64,000 bases of DNA from Rhodobacteraceae bacterium HLUCCA12 (GTDB lineage Bacteria > Pseudomonadota > Alphaproteobacteria > Rhodobacterales > Rhodobacteraceae): the NCBI GenBank assembly GCA_001314715.1, contig LJSV01000001.1, positions 1 to 64,000 of the forward strand, in the 5' to 3' direction. Numbering within the stretch: position 1 is the stretch's first letter; each line of letters starts with the position of its first letter. A program made the position numbers and the translations under genes. Positions 54,720-64,000 of this stretch are shown in pieces. The notes under the pieces were generated by a model. That model ran no database searches and was not told the DNA's origin. It worked only from the letters and a program-made list of their open reading frames with translations.

Positions 54720-54748
54720 TTGACAGATATTCTAACAACTGTTAGAAA
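54720..54748 (+). promoter_or_regulatory. promoter and operator of the acyl-CoA carboxylase operon
   Basis: A consensus -35 TTGACA (54720-54725) is followed 17 bases later by TAGAAA (54743-54748). Between and overlapping them is the 18-base palindrome TTCTAACAACTGTTAGAA (54730-54747; 8-base arms, 2-base centre). This is the classical position for a TetR-type repressor. The first gene starts 26 bases after the -10. The same site could also affect the divergent methyltransferase operon. No TetR gene is found in the window. Confidence 0.65.
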
Positions 54749-54773
54749 CAATCCCGCCGGAGGAGGAACGCAT

Positions 54774-55508
54774 ATGCCCGAGCACAGGAAAACCCCGCAA
54801 AAGCTGCCGCAGGAAATCGCGCAATATCTGGCCGTTACGACCTATGTGGACCATGACGCGCCCGAGATTCGGCGCTATGTCGCCGAGGCGTTGTCGGGGC
54901 TGCCAGACACGGCCAGCGATACCGACAAGGCGATCCGGCTGTTCGAAGCGGTGCGCGATGGCCTGCGCTATGATCCCTACTCATTCGCTCTCGATGCCGA
55001 GGATTATCGCGCCAGCCGGATCGTGCGTCAGCAGTCGGGGTTTTGCGTGCCCAAGGCAATCTTGCTTGCCGCCTGCCTGCGCGCGGCGGGAATTCCGGCC
55101 GCGCTGGGCTTTGCCGATGTGCGCAACCATCTGAACACGCCCAAATTGTCCGAGCTGATGGGCACCGACGTGTTCATCTATCACGGCTATGTCCAGCTTT
55201 GGGCCGATGGCAAGACCTGGAAGGTCACGCCCGCCTTCAACATGGAATTGTGCGCGCGTTTCGGTGTCAAGCCGCTGGTGTTCGACGGGACCGCCGATGC
55301 GCTGTTTCACGAATACGATCAGGGGGGGCGCCAGCATATGGACTATATCAACGACCGTGGCCTGTTCGTCGACCTGCCGGCCGAGGAATTCCTGGCGACC
55401 TTTCGCAAGACCTATCCCAAACTTGAAGAATACAACCGCAACAAGCTACTGGAACAGGGCGCGGACGGGGTGGATGCCGGGTTCGCCGCCGGGGGTGCCG
55501 GGGCGTGA
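54774..55508 (+). CDS. transglutaminase-like protein, first gene of the acyl-CoA catabolic operon
   Basis: A 244-residue soluble protein of the transglutaminase-like Cys-protease-fold superfamily. The Cys is at 91 in RQQSGFCVPKAILLAACLRA, a pattern typical of the family, and the His at 137 in YHGYVQLWADG. The third residue (Asp in V-D-P-T) is replaced: the sequence reads TWKVTPAFN with Thr152. It has no signal peptide. The superfamily includes peptidases, amidases and proteins of unknown role, so it might cleave an amide or thioester. AGGAGGAAC precedes the ATG. Its end overlaps the next start in GTGA. Confidence 0.78.
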   Translation: MPEHRKTPQKLPQEIAQYLAVTTYVDHDAPEIRRYVAEALSGLPDTASDTDKAIRLFEAVRDGLRYDPYSFALDAEDYRASRIVRQQSGFCVPKAILLAACLRAAGIPAALGFADVRNHLNTPKLSELMGTDVFIYHGYVQLWADGKTWKVTPAFNMELCARFGVKPLVFDGTADALFHEYDQGGRQHMDYINDRGLFVDLPAEEFLATFRKTYPKLEEYNRNKLLEQGADGVDAGFAAGGAGA

Positions 55509-55948
55509 AATACCTCGAAGACTATCACACCGGGCAAGTGTTCCACCGCCAAAGCCGGCCGATGAGCGCCGAAGGCATCATGGACTTCGCCCGCGAATGG
55601 GATCCGCAGCGCCTGCATCTGGATGCCGACTTCGCCACCGCGATGCACGGAAGCCTGATCGCATCGGGCTTTCAGACGATGCTGCACGCGTTTCAGCCCT
55701 TCATGCACGATGTCTTTTCGCAGATGGAGAATATCGGCGGGCTGGGGCTGGACAACCTGCGCTGGCGGCGCCCGGTGCGCCCCGATGAAGTGCTGGATCT
55801 GAGCATGGAAATCACCGCCGTCACGCCGTCGCGCTCAAAGCCCGACCGCGGTGTTCTGGGCTATCGGATCAGCGCCCGCAACCCGGCCGGCGAAGAGGTG
55901 TTTTGCACCGATTGCGCCGTCATGATCCGACGCCGCCCCGCGCCCTGA
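55505..55948 (+). CDS. MaoC-like (R)-specific enoyl-CoA hydratase
   Basis: A 147-residue hotdog-fold protein of the MaoC dehydratase family. It has the hydratase dyad in AREWDPQRLHLDADFAT (Asp-x4-His), followed by GSLIASGFQTMLHAF and the C-terminal strands around LRWRRPVRPDEVLDLSMEI, typical of MaoC. It probably hydrates an unsaturated acyl-CoA or dehydrates a 3-hydroxyacyl-CoA. The GTG start overlaps the stop of the transglutaminase-like gene (GTGA), tying the two together. Confidence 0.86.
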   Translation: MKYLEDYHTGQVFHRQSRPMSAEGIMDFAREWDPQRLHLDADFATAMHGSLIASGFQTMLHAFQPFMHDVFSQMENIGGLGLDNLRWRRPVRPDEVLDLSMEITAVTPSRSKPDRGVLGYRISARNPAGEEVFCTDCAVMIRRRPAP

Positions 55949-55983
55949 TCGCGCCCGCGCCACCGTTTCCAGGAGAGCCATCC

Positions 55984-56793
55984 ATGTCCGACCGTTACGC
56001 CAAGTATGACCGCCTCAAGTTCGACTATCCCGCCGAGCGGGTCTTGCGGATCACCTTCGACAAGCCCGAAAGCTACAATTCCGTCGATGCCGCGACCCAC
56101 ACGCAGATGACCGACATGTGGATCGACATCGACCGCGACCCCGACATCAACGCGGTTCTGGTCACCGGCGCGGGCAAGGCGTTCTCGGCGGGCGGCGATT
56201 TCACCCTGATCGAGAACCTGACCGGCGATTTCGACACGGTCATGCGCACCTGGAAAGAGGCGAAAGACCTCGTCTACAACATCATCAACTGCAACAAGCC
56301 GATCATTTCGGCCATCAACGGCCCGGCGGCGGGCGCGGGGCTGGTCGTGGGTATCCTGGCCGACATCTCGATTGCCGGCAAACGCGCGCGTATCGTCGAC
56401 GGGCATCCGCGCCTGGGGGTGGCGGCGGGCGATGTCGCGGCGATCATCTGGCCGCTTCTGTGCGGGATGGCCAAGGCCAAGTATTATCTGCTGACCTGCA
56501 AGCCGATGACCGGCGAAGAGGCCGAGCGCATCGGCCTGGTCTCGCTCTGTGTCGAGGATGACGACTTGCAGCGCATCGCGCTGGAAACGGCTGTCGATCT
56601 GGCCAACGGCGCACAAAGCGCGATCCGCTGGACCAAATACTCGCTGAACAACTGGTTGCGCCAGGCCGGGCCGACATTCGACACATCGACCGCACTGGAA
56701 ATGCTGGGCTTCATGGGCGACGACGTGCGCGAGGGGCTGGCCTCGCACCGTGAAAAGCGCGCGCCCAATTTCCGCAAGGATTGCCCGCTTTAA
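55984..56793 (+). CDS. crotonase-family protein lacking both canonical hydratase Glu residues
   Basis: A 269-residue enoyl-CoA hydratase/isomerase-fold protein. It has [20 protein letters not shown] for CoA and oxyanion-hole binding, then [18 protein letters not shown] and [12 protein letters not shown]. In rat enoyl-CoA hydratase the catalytic Glu144 and Glu164 lie in G-G-G-x-E and Q-P-E; here those positions are Val and His. Simple enoyl-CoA hydration is therefore doubtful, and other crotonase reactions (C-C hydrolase, isomerase, retro-Claisen) are possible. The ending [19 protein letters not shown] is typical of the fold. AGGAG lies nine bases before the ATG. Confidence 0.85.
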
Positions 56794-56829
56794 GCGGCAT
56801 CGCGACGACCCGAGGGGAGGGGGGACGAC

Positions 56830-57618
56830 ATGACCGACGACCCTGGCCCGGTGATCGCCACGACACGCGGCGCCACCGGCATCATCGAGCTGGCACGGCC
56901 CGACAAGTTCAACTGCCTGTCGGGGGCGGCCTTCACCGCCATTGACGCCGCCCGCGCCGGTTTTGAACAGGATCGCGCGGTGCGATCCATCCTGATCCGT
57001 GCGCAGGGCAAGCATTTCTGCACCGGCGCCGATCTTGACGAGGTTACACGCACCATTGCCGACCCGGCCGCGCTGGATCACTTTCTGGCGCATGGTATGG
57101 AAGTGCTGCAAGGGCTTGAGTCCAGCCCCTTGCCGGTCGTCGTCGCGGTGCAGGGCCTGTGCCTTGCCGGCGGGATCGAGCTGATGCTGGCCGCCGATGT
57201 GGCCTTTGCCGCGCAATCGGCGCAGTTCGGCGATCAGCATGCCCAGTTCGGCCTGATCCCCGGCTGGGGCGGCAGCCAGCGGCTGACCCGCGTCATGGGC
57301 CTGCGGCCGGCGCTGGATCTGATGTTCTCGGCGCAATGGCTGGGTGCCGAGGCCGCGCACGCGGCGGGGCTGGTCAACCATGTCGTGCCCGATGACGCGC
57401 TTCATGCGCGCGCGCTGGACTACTGCGACACGCTTGCGACGCGCTCGCGCACCGGGCTTGCCCGGATGAAACGGCTGGCGCGCGAGGGGCTCGATCTGTC
57501 GCTGACACAAGCCATGCGGCTGGAACGCGACGCAGCGGTGCAACATCTGCGCGGGCCCGACGTGGCCGAGGGGCTGGCGGCCTTTCGCGCCCGCCGGACA
57601 CCGGATTTCAGGGAGTAG
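56830..57618 (+). CDS. crotonase-family enoyl-CoA hydratase-like protein
   Basis: A 262-residue crotonase. SILIRAQGKHFCTGADLDEV forms the first oxyanion-hole strand, and VQGLCLAGGIELMLAADVAF keeps the Glu equivalent to rat Glu144. The second position, usually Q-P-E, reads AQFGDQHAQFGLIPGWGGSQ, with His in place of Glu164. The rest (GGSQRLTRVMGLRPALDLM, AHAAGLVNHVV) is standard. It may be a hydratase with a modified active site, for example for a carboxylated (glutaconyl-type) substrate. Start ATG 56830 follows a purine-rich GAGGGGAGGGG. Confidence 0.86.
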   Translation: MTDDPGPVIATTRGATGIIELARPDKFNCLSGAAFTAIDAARAGFEQDRAVRSILIRAQGKHFCTGADLDEVTRTIADPAALDHFLAHGMEVLQGLESSPLPVVVAVQGLCLAGGIELMLAADVAFAAQSAQFGDQHAQFGLIPGWGGSQRLTRVMGLRPALDLMFSAQWLGAEAAHAAGLVNHVVPDDALHARALDYCDTLATRSRTGLARMKRLAREGLDLSLTQAMRLERDAAVQHLRGPDVAEGLAAFRARRTPDFRE

Positions 57619-57625
57619 GAACGCC

Positions 57626-58786
57626 ATGGATTTCAGCCTCAACGACGAACAACGCCAGATCTATGACTACGGCGGGCGGCTGGCGCAAAGCTTCGACAAT
57701 GCCTATTGGCGCGACCATGCCCGCCGCCATGCCTATCCGCGCGCGATGTTCGAGCAGATCGCCGCCGACGGCTTTCTGGGCATGATGGTGCCCGAGGAAT
57801 ATGGCGGCTCGGGTCTGGGCATGCTTGAGATGGCGCTGTTCATGGAGGGGACGGGGAACCACGGCATCCCGCTTTTCTCGATGGTGGTGGGGCCGTGCAT
57901 GTCGCTGTCGCATCTGGCCGCCCACGGGACCGAGTTTCACAAGTCCGAGCTGTTGCCGCGCGCCTGTCGTGGCGAGATCCAGTTCTGTTTTGCTATCACC
58001 GAGCCGGGCGCGGGGTCGAACGCGATCCGCATGGAGACGATGGCGCGGCGCAAGGGCAACCGCTTTGCGCTCAACGGCTCCAAGACCTTCATCACCGGGG
58101 CCGATGTGTCGGATTATTGCCTGGTCGTGGCGCGCACGCAAAAGCACACGGAGGTTGCGCGCAAGACCGACGGGTTCACCCTGTTTGCCGTCGATCTGAA
58201 GAAACCGGGCATCGACATGCAGCGCGTGCGCATCGCCGCGCCGCTGCCCGAGGAACAGTGGACACTTTTCTTCGACGAGGTCGATCTGGGCCCCGAGGAT
58301 GTGGTCGGCGAGGTCGATGAGGGGTTCTCGATCCTCTTTGACACGCTCAACCCAGAACGGATCGTGGTGGGCGCGATGTGCTGCGGCGTCGGGCGCTGGG
58401 CGCTGGGCCAGGCGGTGGAATACGCGTCCGAACGCAATGTCTTTGGCCAGCCCATCGGCGCGCATCAAGGCGTGCAGCACCCCTTGGCCAAGGCACATGT
58501 CGCGGTCGAGAATGCCAGCCTGATGACCCGTCGCGCCGCGTGGGAATTCGATCAGGGCCTTGCGGCGGGCGCGTCGTCGAACATGGCGCGCTATGCCGGG
58601 GCCGAAGCCGGGATCGAGGCCGTCGATGCGGCCTTGCAGGCGCATGGCGGCTCTGGCTTTACCGAGGATACGGGCATCTACGAGATGTATCCCTTGATGC
58701 GTATTCTGCGCACCGCGCCGATCAACCGCGAACTGTGCCTGAGCTATATCGGCGAAAAGGTCATGGGATTGCCGCGCTCTTACTGA
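57626..58786 (+). CDS. acyl-CoA dehydrogenase
   Basis: A 386-residue FAD-dependent acyl-CoA dehydrogenase. Segments: MMVPEEYGGSGLGMLEMALF, the flavin-binding FAITEPGAGSNAIRMET, LNGSKTFITGADVSDYCLVV, and near the end LQAHGGSGFTEDTGIYEMYP. The expected catalytic base is Glu369 in APINRELCLSYI, in a C terminus ending GLPRSY, like FadE-type rather than isovaleryl-type (I-Y-E-G-T) enzymes. The acyl specificity is not readable. GGAGTAGG precedes the ATG, seven bases after the crotonase stop. Confidence 0.93.
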   Translation: MDFSLNDEQRQIYDYGGRLAQSFDNAYWRDHARRHAYPRAMFEQIAADGFLGMMVPEEYGGSGLGMLEMALFMEGTGNHGIPLFSMVVGPCMSLSHLAAHGTEFHKSELLPRACRGEIQFCFAITEPGAGSNAIRMETMARRKGNRFALNGSKTFITGADVSDYCLVVARTQKHTEVARKTDGFTLFAVDLKKPGIDMQRVRIAAPLPEEQWTLFFDEVDLGPEDVVGEVDEGFSILFDTLNPERIVVGAMCCGVGRWALGQAVEYASERNVFGQPIGAHQGVQHPLAKAHVAVENASLMTRRAAWEFDQGLAAGASSNMARYAGAEAGIEAVDAALQAHGGSGFTEDTGIYEMYPLMRILRTAPINRELCLSYIGEKVMGLPRSY

Positions 58787-58838
58787 CCGCGGCGCGCCCG
58801 CCGGGCCGCGCCGTCACGACCCTGAACAGGAGACGGGG

Positions 58839-60215
58839 ATGGACGCACAAACGCGCTATCGCCATGCCGCGGCCCGTGACCGGGCCGACGCCGCGATGTG
58901 GAACACCAACGAGGGGCTGGCGCGCACCGCGCTGCGCAGGCTGCAAGATCGGGCACTGAGACGGCAATTGGGTCGGCTGGCGCAGGATTCGCCCTTTTAT
59001 CAGGACAAGTTCGCCGGGATCGACCTGGGCGCAATTCGCGGGATCGGCGACTTGCCACGTCTGCCCTTCACCGTGAAGACCGAACTGCGCGAGAGCCTGC
59101 ACGCCGCGCCGCCCTTTGGCCGGCATCTCGGCGTGCCGATTGCGGCGGTGGTGCAGATGCAGGCGTCGTCGGGCACCACCGGCAGCCCGTCCTATGTCGC
59201 GCTGACCGAGTCGGATGTTTCGGCATGGGCCGAGATGACGGCGCGCACGCTCTTTGCCTGCGGTATCCGCCCCGGCGATCTGGTGTTGCATGCGTTCTCA
59301 ATGGCCAAGGGCTTTGTCGGCGGGGTGCCGATGTTTCAGGCCTTGCAATACATGGGTGCGATCGACATTCCGGTCGGGGCCGATGGCGGCGTCGATCGCC
59401 TGTTGCGCGCCTGTGCCGATCTGCGCCCGCGGGCGATCATCGGCACACCGAACTTTCTTCTGCACCTGGCCGAACAGGCGCCTGCCATCGTCGGCCAACC
59501 CGCGCATGCGCTGGGCGTTCGGCGGCTGGTGGTCGGCGGGGAGCCCGGCGGCGGCATTCCCGCGATCCGGGCGCAACTGGAACGGGCCTGGGGCGCGCGC
59601 TGCTGCGAATTGCTGGGCGGGACCGATCTGGGCGTGGCCTACTGGGCCGAATGCGACCACCAGTCCGGGATGCACATGGTCTGCGAGGACCACATCATCA
59701 CCGAACTGCTGGACCCCGACACCGGCACCGTCATCGCGTTCGAAACCGGCGCCACGGGTGAGCTGGTCTATACCGCGATCGGGCGCGAGGCTTCGGCGCT
59801 GGTGCGCTTTCGCTCGGGCGATCATGTCGAGGTGCTGGGCACCGATTGTCCCTGCGGGCGCAGCGGGCCGCGCATCCGCTGTGTCGGGCGCACCGACGAC
59901 ATGCTGATCGTGCGCGGCGTCAATGTCTTTCCGTCGGCGATTCAAAGCGTGATTGCCGACATGGTGCCGCAAACCAACGGCGTCATGCGCGTCCTGCGCG
60001 ATTTCGACGGTCACGCGACCCAGGCGCCGCTCAAGGTGATTGTCGAACGCGGGCCGGATGCCGACCCCGCCGACGACCCGGCGCTCAAGGCCCGGATCGA
60101 GCGGCATTTGCGCGACGCGCTGGTGTTTCGCGCCGATGTCCGCCTGACCGATCCTGACACGTTCGACAAACCCGGCGTTGCCAAGGTGGCGCTGAGCATC
60201 CGGAATTTTCCATGA
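58839..60215 (+). CDS. phenylacetate-CoA ligase-like (PaaK family) adenylate-forming enzyme
   Basis: A 458-residue AMP-forming ligase of the PaaK group. The ATP-binding loop is [19 protein letters not shown] (~109-127), followed by ELLGGTDLGVAYWAECDHQ (A5-like), TGELVYTAIGREASALVRFR with RSGD, and the C-terminal hinge RCVGRTDDMLIVRGVNVFPS. PaaK enzymes activate aromatic or other carboxylic acids as CoA thioesters; related proteins use different acids, so phenylacetate is not implied. In this operon it probably supplies the acyl-CoA entering the pathway. It overlaps the carboxylase beta subunit in an ATGA junction. Confidence 0.87.
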   Translation: MDAQTRYRHAAARDRADAAMWNTNEGLARTALRRLQDRALRRQLGRLAQDSPFYQDKFAGIDLGAIRGIGDLPRLPFTVKTELRESLHAAPPFGRHLGVPIAAVVQMQASSGTTGSPSYVALTESDVSAWAEMTARTLFACGIRPGDLVLHAFSMAKGFVGGVPMFQALQYMGAIDIPVGADGGVDRLLRACADLRPRAIIGTPNFLLHLAEQAPAIVGQPAHALGVRRLVVGGEPGGGIPAIRAQLERAWGARCCELLGGTDLGVAYWAECDHQSGMHMVCEDHIITELLDPDTGTVIAFETGATGELVYTAIGREASALVRFRSGDHVEVLGTDCPCGRSGPRIRCVGRTDDMLIVRGVNVFPSAIQSVIADMVPQTNGVMRVLRDFDGHATQAPLKVIVERGPDADPADDPALKARIERHLRDALVFRADVRLTDPDTFDKPGVAKVALSIRNFP

Positions 60216-61819
60216 CCATGCTGACCTCGACCATCGACCCGACCTCGGACAGCTTTCGCGCCAATCAGGCGGCCTTTCGTGAAAAGCTCGATGCCCTTTA
60301 CGCGTTGCGGCGCCAACAGCGCTCCGGCGGGTCCGAAAAGGCGCGGCGCCTGCATATCGAACGCGGCCGCCTGTTGCCGCGCGAGCGGGTCGAACGGCTG
60401 ATCGACCCCGGCACACCCTTTCTGGAATTGGCCGAACTGGCCGGGCTGAACCTCTATGACGGGGTGCCGCCGGGGGCGGGCATCATCACCGGGATCGGGG
60501 TGATCGCCGGGCGGCACTGCATGATCATCGCCAACGACTCGACGGTCAAGGGCGGCACCTATTTCGGCATGACCTGCCGCAAGCATGTGCGCGCGCAGCG
60601 CATCGCCTGGGCAAACCGGTTGCCGGTCATCACGCTGGTCGACAGCGGCGGCGGGTTCCTGCCCGACATGGCCAACATCTTTCCTGATGAGGGGCAGTTC
60701 GGGTCGATCTTTCACAACCAGGTCGGCATGTCGGGCGACGGTATTCCGCAGATCGCGGTGATCATGGGGCCTTGCACGGCGGGCGGCGCCTATATTCCGG
60801 CGCTGTGCGACGAGGTGGTGATCGTTCGCGGGCAGGGCTTCATGTATCTGGGCGGGCCCGAGCTGACCTTTGCCGCGACCGGCGAAAAGGTCGATGCCGA
60901 AACCCTGGGCGGCGGCAAGATGCATTCCTCGATCTCGGGCGTAACCGATCACCTGGCCGAGGATGACGCCCATGCCCTGGCCATCACGCGCCGGCTGGTC
61001 GGCCATCTGGGCGAGGCGCGCAAGCCCCGCAAGACCGCCGCCGAACCGCGCCCGCCCGCCTGGCCGGTCGCGGAAATCCACGGCATCGTCAGCCGCGACC
61101 CGCGCGTTCCCACCGACAACCGCGCGGTGGTGGCACGGCTGATCGACGCGGGCGAATTTCACGAGTTCAAGCCGCTATACGGCGATACGCTGATGACCGG
61201 CTGGGCCCGCATCCATGGCCACGAGGTCGGCATCATCGCCAACACCGGGGTGTTGTTCGTCGAATCCGCGCACAAGGCGGCGCATTTCATCAGCCTGTGC
61301 GTGCAGCGCGACATCCCGCTTTTGTTTCTGGTCGATGTGACCGGCTTCATGGTCGGGCGCGATGCCGAACAGACCGGCATCGCCAAGGCCGGGGCCAAGA
61401 TGATCACGGCGATGTCCTCGGCGCGGGTGCCCAAGTTCACGGTCATCACCGGGGGCTCGTATGGGGCGGGGTATCTGGCGATGCTGGGCCGGCCCTTTCA
61501 GCCCGATGCGATGTTCATGTGGCCCTCGGGGCGCGCGGCGATCATGGGGCCGGACCAGGCGTCAAGCGTTCTGGCGCAGGTGCGCGTTCAGGCGCTTGCG
61601 CGCGAGGGCAAGACCATGACCGCCGACGAGGAAGAGGCCTTCACGGCCCCGGTGCGCAAGATCTACGAGGATTTCCAGACGCCCGAGAATTTCGCCGCCA
61701 ATCTTTGGGTTGACGGCGTGATCGCGCCCGAGGAAACGCGCGAGGTCATGGCGCTGATGCTGGATCTGGCGGCGCGGCGCGACAAGGCGGAAACCCGCTT
61801 TGGCGTTTTCCGGTTCTGA
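60212..61819 (+). CDS. acyl-CoA carboxylase, carboxyltransferase (beta) subunit
   Basis: A 535-residue carboxyltransferase related to the beta subunits of 3-methylcrotonyl-CoA and geranyl-CoA carboxylases. N-terminal half: VKGGTYFGMTCRKHVRAQRI, TLVDSGGGFLPDMANIFPDE and VIMGPCTAGGAYIPALCDE. C-terminal half: TGVLFVESAHKAAHFISLC, LFLVDVTGFMVGRDAEQTGI, GGSYGAGYLAMLGRPFQPD and PSGRAAIMGPDQASSVL. It transfers CO2 from carboxybiotin on the alpha subunit to an acyl-CoA. Overall it is closest to the MCC/GCC pattern rather than propionyl-CoA carboxylase, but the exact acyl chain is uncertain. Start overlaps the ligase stop (ATGA). Confidence 0.92.
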   Translation: MTMLTSTIDPTSDSFRANQAAFREKLDALYALRRQQRSGGSEKARRLHIERGRLLPRERVERLIDPGTPFLELAELAGLNLYDGVPPGAGIITGIGVIAGRHCMIIANDSTVKGGTYFGMTCRKHVRAQRIAWANRLPVITLVDSGGGFLPDMANIFPDEGQFGSIFHNQVGMSGDGIPQIAVIMGPCTAGGAYIPALCDEVVIVRGQGFMYLGGPELTFAATGEKVDAETLGGGKMHSSISGVTDHLAEDDAHALAITRRLVGHLGEARKPRKTAAEPRPPAWPVAEIHGIVSRDPRVPTDNRAVVARLIDAGEFHEFKPLYGDTLMTGWARIHGHEVGIIANTGVLFVESAHKAAHFISLCVQRDIPLLFLVDVTGFMVGRDAEQTGIAKAGAKMITAMSSARVPKFTVITGGSYGAGYLAMLGRPFQPDAMFMWPSGRAAIMGPDQASSVLAQVRVQALAREGKTMTADEEEAFTAPVRKIYEDFQTPENFAANLWVDGVIAPEETREVMALMLDLAARRDKAETRFGVFRF

Positions 61820-61831
61820 AGGGGGCTGAGG

Positions 61832-63823
61832 ATGGACATCCGGACATTGCTGATCGCCAACCGGGGCGAGATTGCCTGCCGCATCGCGCGCAGCGCGCGG
61901 GCCATGGGGATCGTTCCGGTGGGCGTGCATTCCAGCGCCGACGCCAATGCCCGCCACGTGCGCGAGATCGGCCACAGCCTGCTGATCGGCGGTGGCGCGG
62001 CGCGCGACAGCTATCTCAGGATCGACGCGGTGATCGAGGCCGCGCGCCGCGCGGGGGCGGACGCGGTCCATCCCGGTTATGGTTTCCTGTCAGAGAACCC
62101 CGATTTCGCCCGCGCCTGTCAGGCCGCCGGGATCATGTTCATCGGCCCCACGCCCGAAACGCTTGAGGCCTTCGGCGACAAGGCGCGTGCCAAGGCTGCG
62201 GCCATCGCGGCCGGTGTGCCGGTGATCGCAGGCGCGGGCGACGCGCTGACGGACCGCGACGCGATCGCCGCGCGTGTGCAGGAAATGGGCCTGCCCATCC
62301 TGCTCAAGGCGGTGGGCGGTGGCGGCGGGCGCGGACAAAGGCTGGTGAATGACCACGCCACGCTGGCCGCCGATATAGCGGCCGCGCTGCGCGAGGCGCG
62401 TTCGACCTTCGGTTCAGAAGGTTTGCTGCTGGAACGCTTCCTGCCAGAGGCGCGTCATGTCGAGATCCAGATCGCGGGCGACGGGCAGGGGCGGGTGGTC
62501 CATCTTTATGAACGCGACTGCACCTTGCAGCGCCGCCACCAGAAGGTGATCGAGGAAGCGCCTGCCACCGGCCTGCCCGATGCGCTGCTGGCGGCCATGC
62601 GCGCCGATGCCGTGCGACTGGGCGAGAGCGTGGCCTATCGCGGGCTGGGCACGGTCGAATTCCTGGTCGCTGATGGCGCCCATTATTTTCTTGAGGTCAA
62701 TCCGCGCCTTCAGGTCGAACACCCGGTGACCGAGGCCGTGACCGGGCTGGACCTTGTCGAATTGCAACTGCGCATCGCTCAAGGCGCGCCCTTGCCGGCG
62801 CAATCCGACATTACGCTGCACGGCCATGCGTTCGAGGCCCGCCTTTACGCCGAAGACCCTGCGCAGGGCTTTGCCCCCTCGACCGGGCGCATCGTTTCGC
62901 TGTCCCTTCCAGGGGGTGCGCGCATCGACTCTGGTGTCGATGAGGGCGACAGCGTCACCCCGCATTACGACCCGATGATCGCCAAGATCATCACCCATGC
63001 CGAAACGCGCGAGACCGCGCTGACAGCCTTGGCGCACGCGCTTGGGCATACGGCGGTCGAAGGTGTCACCACCAATCGGGGCTTTCTTCTGGCGCTGGCG
63101 CGGCACGCGGATTTCGGGGCATTGGCGGTCCATACGCGCTGGATCGACGCCCATATCGAAACGCTTGCCGCCGCCGATCCCGCGCCGGTCTGGGCGGCGG
63201 TCGCGGCGGCGCTGTTCGTGCAGATGGGCCGGGTCGAGGGCTGCCCCGATCCGTGGCGGCGGCGTGACATGTTCACCGGCTGGCGGCTGGGACTGGGCAC
63301 GGACGAGGATGCGCCGTGGCAAAGCGTGTCCCTGTCGCGACCCGGCGCGGCGGCCGAAGAATATCGCATCGGCCCCATCGGTGCGGATGGTTGGCTGTGC
63401 CTGCGCGCCCCCGATGGCACCACGATCCGGCTGGCGCTGCATGAGATCGCGCGCGGGGTCTGGCAGTTGACGCAGCAGGATACGGTGTCGATGCTGCATG
63501 TGCGCGCCCGCGACGGTCTGATCGAGATCGACGGCCCGCAGGGCAGGCATCTGTTTCATGCCGCGCCGCCGGTTGACCATGCCGTGGGTGCGGGGGCGGC
63601 CGAAACGGTGCTGACCTCGCCCCTGACCGGCCTGATCGTCCAGGTTCTGGCGGTCGAGGGCGCGACGGTGGCGCAGGGCGAGACCATCGCCATTCTGGAA
63701 TCGATGAAGATGGAAATCCCGCTGCGCGCCCAGCATGCCGGGCGCCTGGCCAGCCTGACCATCGCCGAGGGGGCCATGATCGACCGGGGTCAGCCCGTCG
63801 CCGAAATCCAGCCCGAGGAGTGA
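61832..63823 (+). CDS. acyl-CoA carboxylase, biotin carboxylase/BCCP (alpha) subunit
   Basis: A 663-residue alpha subunit. The biotin carboxylase domain (1-450) has LLIANRGEIACRIARSARAM, AVHPGYGFLSENPDFA, the Gly-rich KAVGGGGGRGQRLV ATP loop, ERDCTLQRRHQKVIEEAPA and EVNPRLQVEHPVTEAVTG. A linker (BT-like) domain follows. The C-terminal biotinyl domain has ESMKMEI with biotin Lys626. The length is typical of MCC/GCC alpha subunits. It begins 12 bases after the beta subunit gene. It depends on biotin, which the bioMNY importer in this window could provide. Confidence 0.95.
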   Translation: MDIRTLLIANRGEIACRIARSARAMGIVPVGVHSSADANARHVREIGHSLLIGGGAARDSYLRIDAVIEAARRAGADAVHPGYGFLSENPDFARACQAAGIMFIGPTPETLEAFGDKARAKAAAIAAGVPVIAGAGDALTDRDAIAARVQEMGLPILLKAVGGGGGRGQRLVNDHATLAADIAAALREARSTFGSEGLLLERFLPEARHVEIQIAGDGQGRVVHLYERDCTLQRRHQKVIEEAPATGLPDALLAAMRADAVRLGESVAYRGLGTVEFLVADGAHYFLEVNPRLQVEHPVTEAVTGLDLVELQLRIAQGAPLPAQSDITLHGHAFEARLYAEDPAQGFAPSTGRIVSLSLPGGARIDSGVDEGDSVTPHYDPMIAKIITHAETRETALTALAHALGHTAVEGVTTNRGFLLALARHADFGALAVHTRWIDAHIETLAAADPAPVWAAVAAALFVQMGRVEGCPDPWRRRDMFTGWRLGLGTDEDAPWQSVSLSRPGAAAEEYRIGPIGADGWLCLRAPDGTTIRLALHEIARGVWQLTQQDTVSMLHVRARDGLIEIDGPQGRHLFHAAPPVDHAVGAGAAETVLTSPLTGLIVQVLAVEGATVAQGETIAILESMKMEIPLRAQHAGRLASLTIAEGAMIDRGQPVAEIQPEE

Positions 63824-63826
63824 TCG

Positions 63827-64000
63827 ATGTTCGATTATCCGAAATTCGTCGAGTTCCGCGAGGAGGGCCCGCGCGAGGGGTTCCAGATCGAAAAGACGCT
63901 GCACCCGATCGAGGACCGTGTCGCGCTGATCGATCTGTTGTCGGAAACCGGGTTGAAACGGATCCAGGTCGGTTCCTTCGTCAGCCCGCGGCATGTGCCG
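63827..64000 (+). CDS. HMG-CoA lyase-like protein (start only; cut by window end)
   Basis: The first 58 residues of a TIM-barrel HMGL-like protein are visible. FREEGPREGFQIEKTLHPIE matches the family opening E-x-G-P-R-D-G-x-Q, and QVGSFVSPRHVP matches V-x-S-F-V-S-P-x-x-V-P. The metal-binding Asp of P-R-D-G is Glu here. In leucine and terpene catabolism HMG-CoA lyase cuts the hydrated carboxylase product into acetyl-CoA and acetoacetate, so its place after the carboxylase is logical. GAGGAG and the ATG lie within the end of the alpha subunit gene region (4-base gap). Confidence 0.85.
   Translation, partial: MFDYPKFVEFREEGPREGFQIEKTLHPIEDRVALIDLLSETGLKRIQVGSFVSPRHVP

Follow-up and report, generated by a model that had tools for sequence, protein, structure and literature searches.

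An eighteen-gene carboxylase island of Rhodobacteraceae bacterium HLUCCA12 and its probable role in degrading a beta-methyl-branched acid

The window, a stretch of 64,000 nucleotides of Rhodobacteraceae bacterium HLUCCA12 DNA, is part of contig C27 (407,960 bases) in a draft genome of 3,725,513 bases. Its right end carries nine plus-strand genes (54774-64789 on C27) centered on an acyl-CoA carboxylase, and the ninth, which resembles 3-hydroxy-3-methylglutaryl-CoA (HMG-CoA) lyase, runs beyond the 64-kb window. The original prediction, made from the letters alone, described a tightly spaced acyl-CoA catabolic operon with no obvious substrate. Pfam assignments recovered every gene in the predicted order and family, and the intergenic spacings along the run are, in order, -4, 35, 36, 7, 52, -4, 12, and 3 bp. 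The nine genes are as follows.

54774..55508, plus strand: transglutaminase-like protein (TG), 244 aa; Pfam PF01841 Transglut_core, 45.1 bits
55505..55948, plus strand: MaoC-type hydratase-like protein, 147 aa; Pfam PF01575 MaoC_dehydratas, 38.9 bits
55984..56793, plus strand: crotonase 1 (Ech1), PRK07327/EchA15 type; ECH_1, NF005595 432.8 bits (cut-off 292)
56830..57618, plus strand: crotonase 2 (Ech2); ECH_1, PF00378 155.3 bits
57626..58786, plus strand: acyl-CoA dehydrogenase (Acad); Acyl-CoA_dh, PF00441/PF02770/PF02771
58839..60215, plus strand: PaaK-type acid-CoA ligase (phenylacetate-CoA-ligase-like); PF00501 AMP-binding and PF14535 AMP-binding_C_2
60212..61819, plus strand: acyl-CoA carboxylase beta (carboxyltransferase, CTbeta) of the methylcrotonyl-CoA carboxylase (MCC)/geranyl-CoA carboxylase (GCC) gamma-carboxylase lineage; PF01039 Carboxyl_trans, 462 bits
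61832..63823, plus strand: acyl-CoA carboxylase alpha (BCalpha; biotin carboxylase and biotin carrier); PF02786, PF00289, PF02785, PF00364
63827..64789 (the window holds 63827..64000), plus strand: HMG-CoA-lyase-like gene (HMGL); PF00682 HMGL-like, 103 bits

The biotin-carrier motif ESMKM lies at residue 623 of carboxylase alpha. The gene caller was crude (codon GC bias, longest open reading frame) and missed or mis-started some genes; the identities quoted below are blastp, tblastn, or search-tool values. The unit does not end at the lyase. Nine further genes extend it to C27:74958, giving an island of 18 genes (C27:54774-74958). The genes that co-occur beyond 64 kb, which the original prediction had proposed to look at, encode an ATP-binding cassette (ABC) transporter of the Liv type, a FadD-like ligase, two short-chain dehydrogenases/reductases (SDRs), and a double TetR regulator.

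C27, beyond 64 kb, minus strand: periplasmic binding protein, ABC ATPase, and two permeases (the transporter of the island)
C27, beyond 64 kb, minus strand: FadD-like AMP ligase, second ABC ATPase, and SDR (second half of the island)
C27:72725-74086, minus strand: double-TetR regulator, two tandem TetR units in one chain, adjoining the BadH-like SDR
C27:74092 to 74958, plus strand: BadH-like SDR, the last gene of the island

Plasmid NZ_CP040754.1 (Sulfitobacter sp. BSw21498), typed as conjugative, encodes relatives of 18 of the 18 island proteins at 51-84% identity in a search that covered bases 1-140000 of 147547. None of the four flanking proteins tested (BNR-repeat, methyltransferase, PfkB, and PsuG) matched there at E<=1e-20, which places the island edges at ~54774 and ~74958. 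On NZ_CP021915.1 (Sagittula sp. P11), 17 of the 18 island proteins were matched within the stretches 100001-150000 and 170001-220000. The double-TetR regulator has 50-51% relatives on both plasmids and in genome G632, beside the BadH-like SDR. The annotation of NZ_CP040754.1 also includes, besides the catabolic cluster, a Qat anti-phage system (L090:25221-30103). Two-component, TrkA-, Hfq-, and IspDF-like proteins, recognized by eye, make contig C27 itself look chromosomal. No clean empty site was seen in G222 of the same genus, which keeps a PfkB-PsuG-DUF502-like block with the right-flank amidase-like gene ~118 kb off.

The gene order recurs in other genomes, and the search for it that the original prediction proposed was productive. 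The order Ech2-Acad-PaaK-CTbeta-BCalpha-HMGL is kept in the seven genomic loci where all six genes were called (L068, L069, L071, L072, L073, L074, and L099), with protein identities of 69-71, 81-83, 63-66, 79, 61-63, and 75-77% for the six genes, and on both plasmids read for order, NZ_CP040754.1 and NZ_CP021915.1. At L070, an eighth genomic locus, the gene caller hid part of the genes. A second copy in G556 reads Acad-(PaaK)-CTbeta-BCalpha-HMGL, its ligase having been located by search and not by the gene caller. Conservation of the six-gene order shows that the nine-gene run is not a chance open reading frame structure. At the other loci read, TG-MaoC and Ech1 lie in a separate operon, where two extra dehydrogenases and another PaaK-like ligase separate or follow them. 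Compared with eight other strong TG loci and the two plasmids, the window genome alone has the TG part and the carboxylase part fused.

The strong matches of the TG-like and HMGL proteins, from opposite ends of the run, fall in nearly the same genomes. Among 295 genomes of the family, the TG-like protein matched in 15 at E<=1e-10, nine of them strongly (E<=1e-100), and HMGL matched in 16 at E<=1e-70, ten of them at E<=1e-110. All nine strong-TG genomes are among the ten strong-HMGL genomes (hypergeometric 2.4e-16, not corrected for relatedness); the HMGL gene of the tenth, G131, sits on a 3.2-kb contig. The TG-like gene was found at E<=1e-80 in 8 of 388 genomes of a sample of relatives, and within the genus in the window genome alone. 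A search of named contigs with the TG-like protein returned one locus, in a Rhodobacteraceae metagenome-assembled genome. The ligase matched at E<=1e-90 in 6 of 385 genomes of a class sample, and apart from the 100% match to itself it reached 64-65% identity in two of them, G556 (two copies) and G632.

Plasmid records carry many further relatives. At 80-90% identity, Ech1 was found in 39 of 71 matching records; at 60-80%, HMGL was found in 37 of 242 and the ligase in 38 of 55. These counts are not independent because each search includes 21 Pseudosulfitobacter records, many of ~290.6 kb. Mobility typing of the 71 Ech1 records gave 21 conjugative, 7 mobilizable, and 43 non-mobilizable plasmids, and diatom hosts are listed for many of the isolates. 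The 18-gene set is real and conserved and has plasmid-borne relatives, some of them on conjugative plasmids.

Carboxylase beta has AccD1 as its best solved relative (614.6 bits), followed by Pseudomonas aeruginosa MCC (583 bits) and GCC (426 bits). Mycobacterial AccD1 is a proven MCC according to PMC4347857. The acyl-pocket rule given in PMC4673880 assigns to MCC a Phe with a three-residue insertion before it and to GCC a Gly with the insertion absent. Phe163 of carboxylase beta aligns gap-free with the MCC Phe and the three-residue insertion is kept, so the enzyme is of the small-pocket (Phe-closed) type. A 16-residue stretch, RQDEVFPDREHFGRIF, is invariant between two proven MCCs in PMC4347857. 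By hand count on the alignment, carboxylase beta keeps 7 of these 16 residues, the three Phe included, versus 14 of 16 in the MCC encoded on contig C38 of the same genome.

That genome holds three other full-length Carboxyl_trans proteins and two of AccA/AccD size. The canonical MCC beta at C38:37288 scores 819 bits against P. aeruginosa MCC beta (583 for the window protein) and has a dehydrogenase and a biotin carboxylase nearby, and a canonical HMG-CoA lyase with Arg-Asp is encoded at C48:272204. The C28 carboxylase is geranyl-type, with Gly and the three-residue deletion at the pocket. It is encoded at C28:129667-131079 (L050), and its neighbors there, an alpha subunit of its own, a dehydrogenase, and a TetR, make this a possible acyclic-terpene-type locus. 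Carboxylase matches at E<=1e-100 occur in all 18 genomes of the genus, and only the window genome has one above 54% identity. The remaining 17 include 11 that are at least 90% complete; 15 of the 17 have a match at 51-54%, where the genome's own MCC falls (52%), and 16 have one at 41-45%, where its geranyl-type enzyme falls (43%); the two genomes without a 51-54% match are 64% and 70% complete. The identity of the island as the leucine (liu) operon was rejected because the canonical MCC and HMG-CoA lyase lie elsewhere, on C38 and C48. Its identity as an acyclic-terpene operon with a GCC was rejected as well, since the pocket has Phe and the insertion and the Gly/deletion type sits on C28. These results uphold the original prediction that the ligase, dehydrogenase, carboxylase, hydratase, and lyase make up a route distinct from the leucine and geranate loci, and they answer its concern that a canonical leucine set might prove to be this locus.

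The HMG-CoA-lyase-like protein passes the curated HMG-CoA lyase model NF004283 (256.6 bits, cut-off 246). The catalytic residues of HMG-CoA lyase are Arg41, Glu72, Tyr167, and Cys266, and its metal ligands are Asp42, His233, His235, and Asn275, as listed in PMC6941031. The island enzyme keeps Arg41, Tyr167, both His, Cys266, and Asn275, but Asp42 is replaced by Glu and Glu72 by Gln. Compared with the C48 enzyme, the loop after the catalytic Cys has a four-residue insertion. The alignment has 17 rows, with the window protein entered twice and one cut copy (L037) lacking the sites. The Arg-Glu and Gln changes are present in the window lyase and in 9 of the 9 orthologue rows (72-77% identity) that cover the sites.

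In isovaleryl-type acyl-CoA dehydrogenases the catalytic Glu lies in helix G and not near the C terminus. The island dehydrogenase has the helix-G Glu: its NPERI segment aligns with YER of the genome's own isovaleryl-CoA dehydrogenase (IVD)-like enzyme encoded near MCC (1ukw was also aligned). The column that we take to be that of the usual C-terminal Glu holds Pro. Enoyl-CoA hydratases have two catalytic Glu residues (Glu144 and Glu164 in the rat enzyme). Ech1 has Val and His at these positions, read by eye from an alignment without the rat sequence, and Ech2 keeps the first Glu and has His in the second column. Ech1 scores ~328 bits with PDB entries 3q1t, 3qk8, and 7m3w and has a DGH...LGVAA stretch in common with EchA15. 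The loss of both Glu together with the EchA15 stretch makes it unlikely that Ech1 is a plain hydratase. The MaoC protein contains an Asp-x4-His motif (WDPQRLH).

The ligase scores 209.6 bits with the PaaK equivalog model (TIGR02155, cut-off 646.3 bits) and belongs to a related family only. Its solved relatives are 2y4o, 4r1l, and 6hdw, and the pocket alignment shows a hydrophobic acyl pocket. Five orthologue rows, the window protein among them, hold Met, Val, Leu, or Ile in the column equated with Asp178 of the ligase BvaA; this is a weak test, the column having been placed by reading the residue lists in PMC4619459 as swapped and by PaaK1 numbering.

The TG-like protein keeps Cys91 and His137 of the transglutaminase Cys-His-Asp triad and has Thr152 at the Asp position, a column taken from the 6g49 alignment. 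Cys and His are present in 17 of the 17 aligned sequences (window included), and in the Asp column 16 of them have Thr and one has Val. An AlphaFold2 model built from two sequences had a pLDDT of 42.7 and was not used. Relatives at 41-44% identity occur in L044, L046, and L047 (genomes G173, G099, and G147) near ketosynthase-, carrier-, or ligase-like genes, and these neighborhoods also hold a protein recognized by eye as ectoine-synthase-like. The neighbors at these loci suggest that the TG-like family acts in small-molecule acyl chemistry. In G234 (L045:5907-10875), a 44% relative ends a gene run with a gamma-carboxylase that has Ala at the pocket Phe position and in which biotin carboxylase and carrier are split between two proteins.

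The SDR at C27:74092 is the sole protein of its genome that matches BadH at E<=1e-85. Thirteen genomes were picked for comparison, 12 with the module or its ligase and the same-genus G222. A BadH-like gene was found at this threshold in 11 of the 13 (G222 and G131 lack one), none of the 13 scored above the model cut-off, and none of 14 control genomes matched. BadI (TIGR03210) matched at E<=1e-50 in 5 of 12 genomes, above the cut-off in G556 alone, and in 7 of the 14 controls, none above it; the weaker BadI matches may therefore be other crotonases. G556 and G153 have a second BadH-like gene adjoining a BadI or BadI-like gene, which marks the island SDR as a separate paralogue. On a plasmid of Paracoccus MC1862, a cyclohexanecarboxylate-type cluster encodes a BadH-like protein (381.4 bits) beside a BadI-like protein (463.9, cut-off 467.6), a ring-dehydrogenase-like protein (573.2, cut-off 575.35), and the product of a gene carrying the annotation aliA; an Ech1 relative is encoded near the cluster. 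BadI-type ring opening is unsupported for the island because no match to BadI at E<=1e-50 was found in the window genome. We infer that the SDR would act at an alpha-branched or alicyclic 3-hydroxyacyl-CoA step without BadI ring opening.

We propose, with a probability of about 0.6, that the island takes up and degrades a carboxylic acid with a beta-methyl branch, the nine genes forming the catabolic half. The branch would block ordinary beta-oxidation. The PaaK-type ligase would form the CoA ester of the acid, the isovaleryl-type dehydrogenase would oxidize it to a 3-methyl-2-enoyl-CoA, and the carboxylase would add CO2 to the gamma methyl. Ech2 would then hydrate the double bond and the lyase would release an acetyl unit, with a beta-keto acid as the other product. 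The transporter, FadD-like ligase, BadH-like SDR, MaoC, Ech1, and TG-like proteins may convert an alpha-branched or alicyclic precursor to the beta-methyl acid. This predicted mechanism follows from family assignments and appears fairly secure; the nature of the substrate, a small acid with a beta-methyl branch that derives from an alpha-branched or alicyclic precursor, is our guess. As parts of the same explanation, the lyase and carboxylase probably act on near relatives of HMG-CoA and 3-methylcrotonyl-CoA and not on these compounds themselves, and the island is probably the compact form, on a chromosomal-looking contig, of a gene set found on plasmids of mostly marine bacteria. The branched or cyclic acid suggested by the original prediction would fit the isovaleryl-type dehydrogenase, the gamma-carboxylase, and the BadH-like SDR, but the window genome lacks a BadI match at E<=1e-50.

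A more specific proposal, which we hold tentatively and place somewhat short of even odds as a whole, is a new pathway that starts from an alpha-branched or alicyclic isoprenoid-type acid. A dedicated gamma-carboxylase would be paired with a lyase whose rewired metal site (Arg-Glu, Gln, and the loop insertion) cleaves a new 3-hydroxy-3-substituted glutaryl-CoA, Ech1 would be a glutamate-less retro-Claisen hydrolase, the TG-like protein would be a new enzyme processing CoA thioesters or amides, and the pathway would be distributed among marine bacteria in part on conjugative plasmids. The cluster on NZ_CP040754.1 includes a second biotin carboxylase set, a 562-aa acyl-CoA mutase accompanied by a separate B12 protein and MeaB (L082:3832-5967), a citryl-CoA-lyase-like protein, thiolases, electron transfer flavoprotein (ETF), and CaiB proteins, and these extra enzymes hint at a larger substrate there. 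The mutase would fit a pathway in which a quaternary carbon is isomerized ahead of isovaleryl-type steps.

Several observations weigh against these proposals. The TG/MaoC/Ech1 genes and the carboxylase module are separate operons elsewhere, so that the case for a single pathway comes from co-occurrence, and a partial stretch (L101) holds TetR2, the BadH-like SDR, PaaK, and Ech1 without carboxylase genes before its contig ends. The matches of the transporter, FadD-like ligase, and minus-strand SDR on NZ_CP021915.1 are only 34-50% identical. The C27:74092 SDR scores 389.5 bits with BadH (TIGR03206), below the cut-off of 431.2 (next family 233), BadI is lacking as described above, and no thiolase was seen among the island genes. 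Arg-Glu is found in three of four HMGL-like relatives (44-49% identity) that are not beside these carboxylase genes, the fourth having Arg-Asp; their Glu72 column reads Gln, Asp, Glu, and Glu, and their loop insertion is two residues. The presence of Arg-Glu outside the module weakens the reading of a rewired lyase with a new substrate, and the site changes could instead mean weak activity.

A BadK/BadH/BadI-type alicyclic route, in which the ring of a methyl-substituted cyclohexanecarboxylate is hydrated, oxidized, and opened hydrolytically, would be a special case of the beta-methyl-acid explanation. The Liv-type transporter and a BadH score of the SDR that matches the Paracoccus MC1862 cluster protein (389.5 and 381.4 bits) speak for it, but Ech1 is not BadI by profile, the own genome lacking any BadI match at E<=1e-50, and the module SDR is a paralogue separate from the BadH-like genes that stand beside BadI or BadI-like genes in G556 and G153; we regard this route as possible but doubtful. 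A second, redundant leucine/isovalerate operon that activates free isovalerate by a ligase of its own would explain the MCC Phe and insertion, the isovaleryl-type Glu, a ligase, hydratase, and lyase that complete the route, and a closest solved carboxylase relative, AccD1, that is a proven MCC. This is unlikely in view of the canonical MCC (819 vs 583 bits) and HMG-CoA lyase elsewhere in the genome. The 15 of 17 other genus genomes with 51-54% copies are at the level of the own MCC (52%) and none of the 17 has a closer copy, the lyase site and the carboxylase specificity segment differ in the orthologues that cover them, and the co-inherited MaoC, Ech1, TG, and BadH-like genes would be superfluous for isovalerate.

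A third explanation has the PaaK-type ligase activate a beta-amino or beta-hydroxy branched acid from which a crotonase eliminates the group, the product entering an MCC/HMG-CoA-lyase branch. In Pseudomonas sp. SBV1, the beta-valine cluster has the same architecture: the PaaK-like BvaA is combined with crotonase-type lyases, MCC, a hydratase, and an HMG-CoA lyase (PMC4619459). The Met, Val, Leu, or Ile in the column equated with BvaA Asp178 in the five orthologue rows weakly disfavors this chemistry, and the presence of a dehydrogenase gene points to a saturated substrate; we consider this explanation improbable. An acyclic-terpene (atu) operon acting on citronellate or geranate is the least credible and we give it next to no weight: the families of carboxylase, dehydrogenase, hydratase, and lyase are of the right kind, but the rule published in PMC4673880 excludes as a GCC an enzyme with Phe and the three-residue insertion, and the genome's own Gly/deletion type is at C28.

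If the beta-methyl-acid proposal is correct, marine bacteria, among them many isolates for which diatom hosts are listed, have in common a plasmid-encoded route to use a carbon source now hidden under annotations such as 'hydroxymethylglutaryl-CoA lyase' and 'carboxyl transferase domain-containing protein'. The substrate puzzle posed by the original prediction is real: the annotations of NZ_CP040754.1 and NZ_CP021915.1 give no pathway name, and neither a characterized homologous operon nor a paper on this cluster turned up in our searches of the openly licensed PMC literature. Such loci should not be called leucine or terpene degradation. The operon is short and self-contained, which lends it to direct testing of the substrate, the carboxylase specificity, and the altered lyase site.

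The liu operon (IVD, MCC beta and alpha, methylglutaconyl-CoA hydratase, and HMG-CoA lyase) shares with the island its reaction types, the gamma-carboxylase lineage, and the isovaleryl-type Glu. The island run differs in having a PaaK ligase, MaoC, an extra crotonase, and the TG-like protein, in its divergent carboxylase specificity segment and its lyase substitutions (Asp42 to Glu, Glu72 to Gln), and in coexisting with a separate MCC. The atu operon and GCC share gamma-carboxylation of a beta-methyl enoyl-CoA and the alpha/beta subunit plan, but the island pocket has Phe with the three-residue insertion instead of Gly with the deletion.

In the SBV1 cluster, which encodes the PaaK-like BvaA, BvaB1/B2, MCC, hydratase, and HMG-CoA lyase, assays covered BvaA and BvaB, and the MCC branch was deduced (PMC4619459). 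A PaaK-type ligase gene thus has genes for a carboxylase, a hydratase, and an HMG-CoA lyase as neighbors there, a precedent that the original prediction had implied was lacking. The island run adds a dehydrogenase, MaoC, and the TG-like protein, and its ligase pocket is hydrophobic. Castellaniella degrades cyclic monoterpenes with MrcDEF, which are related to BadH/BadI/BadK, and the word 'carboxylase' is absent from the main text of PMC4109377. The cyclohexanecarboxylate/benzoate (AliAB, BadKHI) and MrcDEF pathways have in common with the island a BadH-like SDR, a Liv-type transporter, and a ligase; they differ in that the window genome is without a BadI match and the island has a biotin carboxylase and a lyase. 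Neither the SBV1 beta-valine system nor the Castellaniella system matches the whole island. The plasmid sets include relatives of all 18 island genes on NZ_CP040754.1 and the six-gene core order on both plasmids, and they differ in keeping the TG and carboxylase parts as separate operons in a larger cluster with thiolases, ETF, and CaiB transferases, joined on NZ_CP040754.1 by the B12 mutase.

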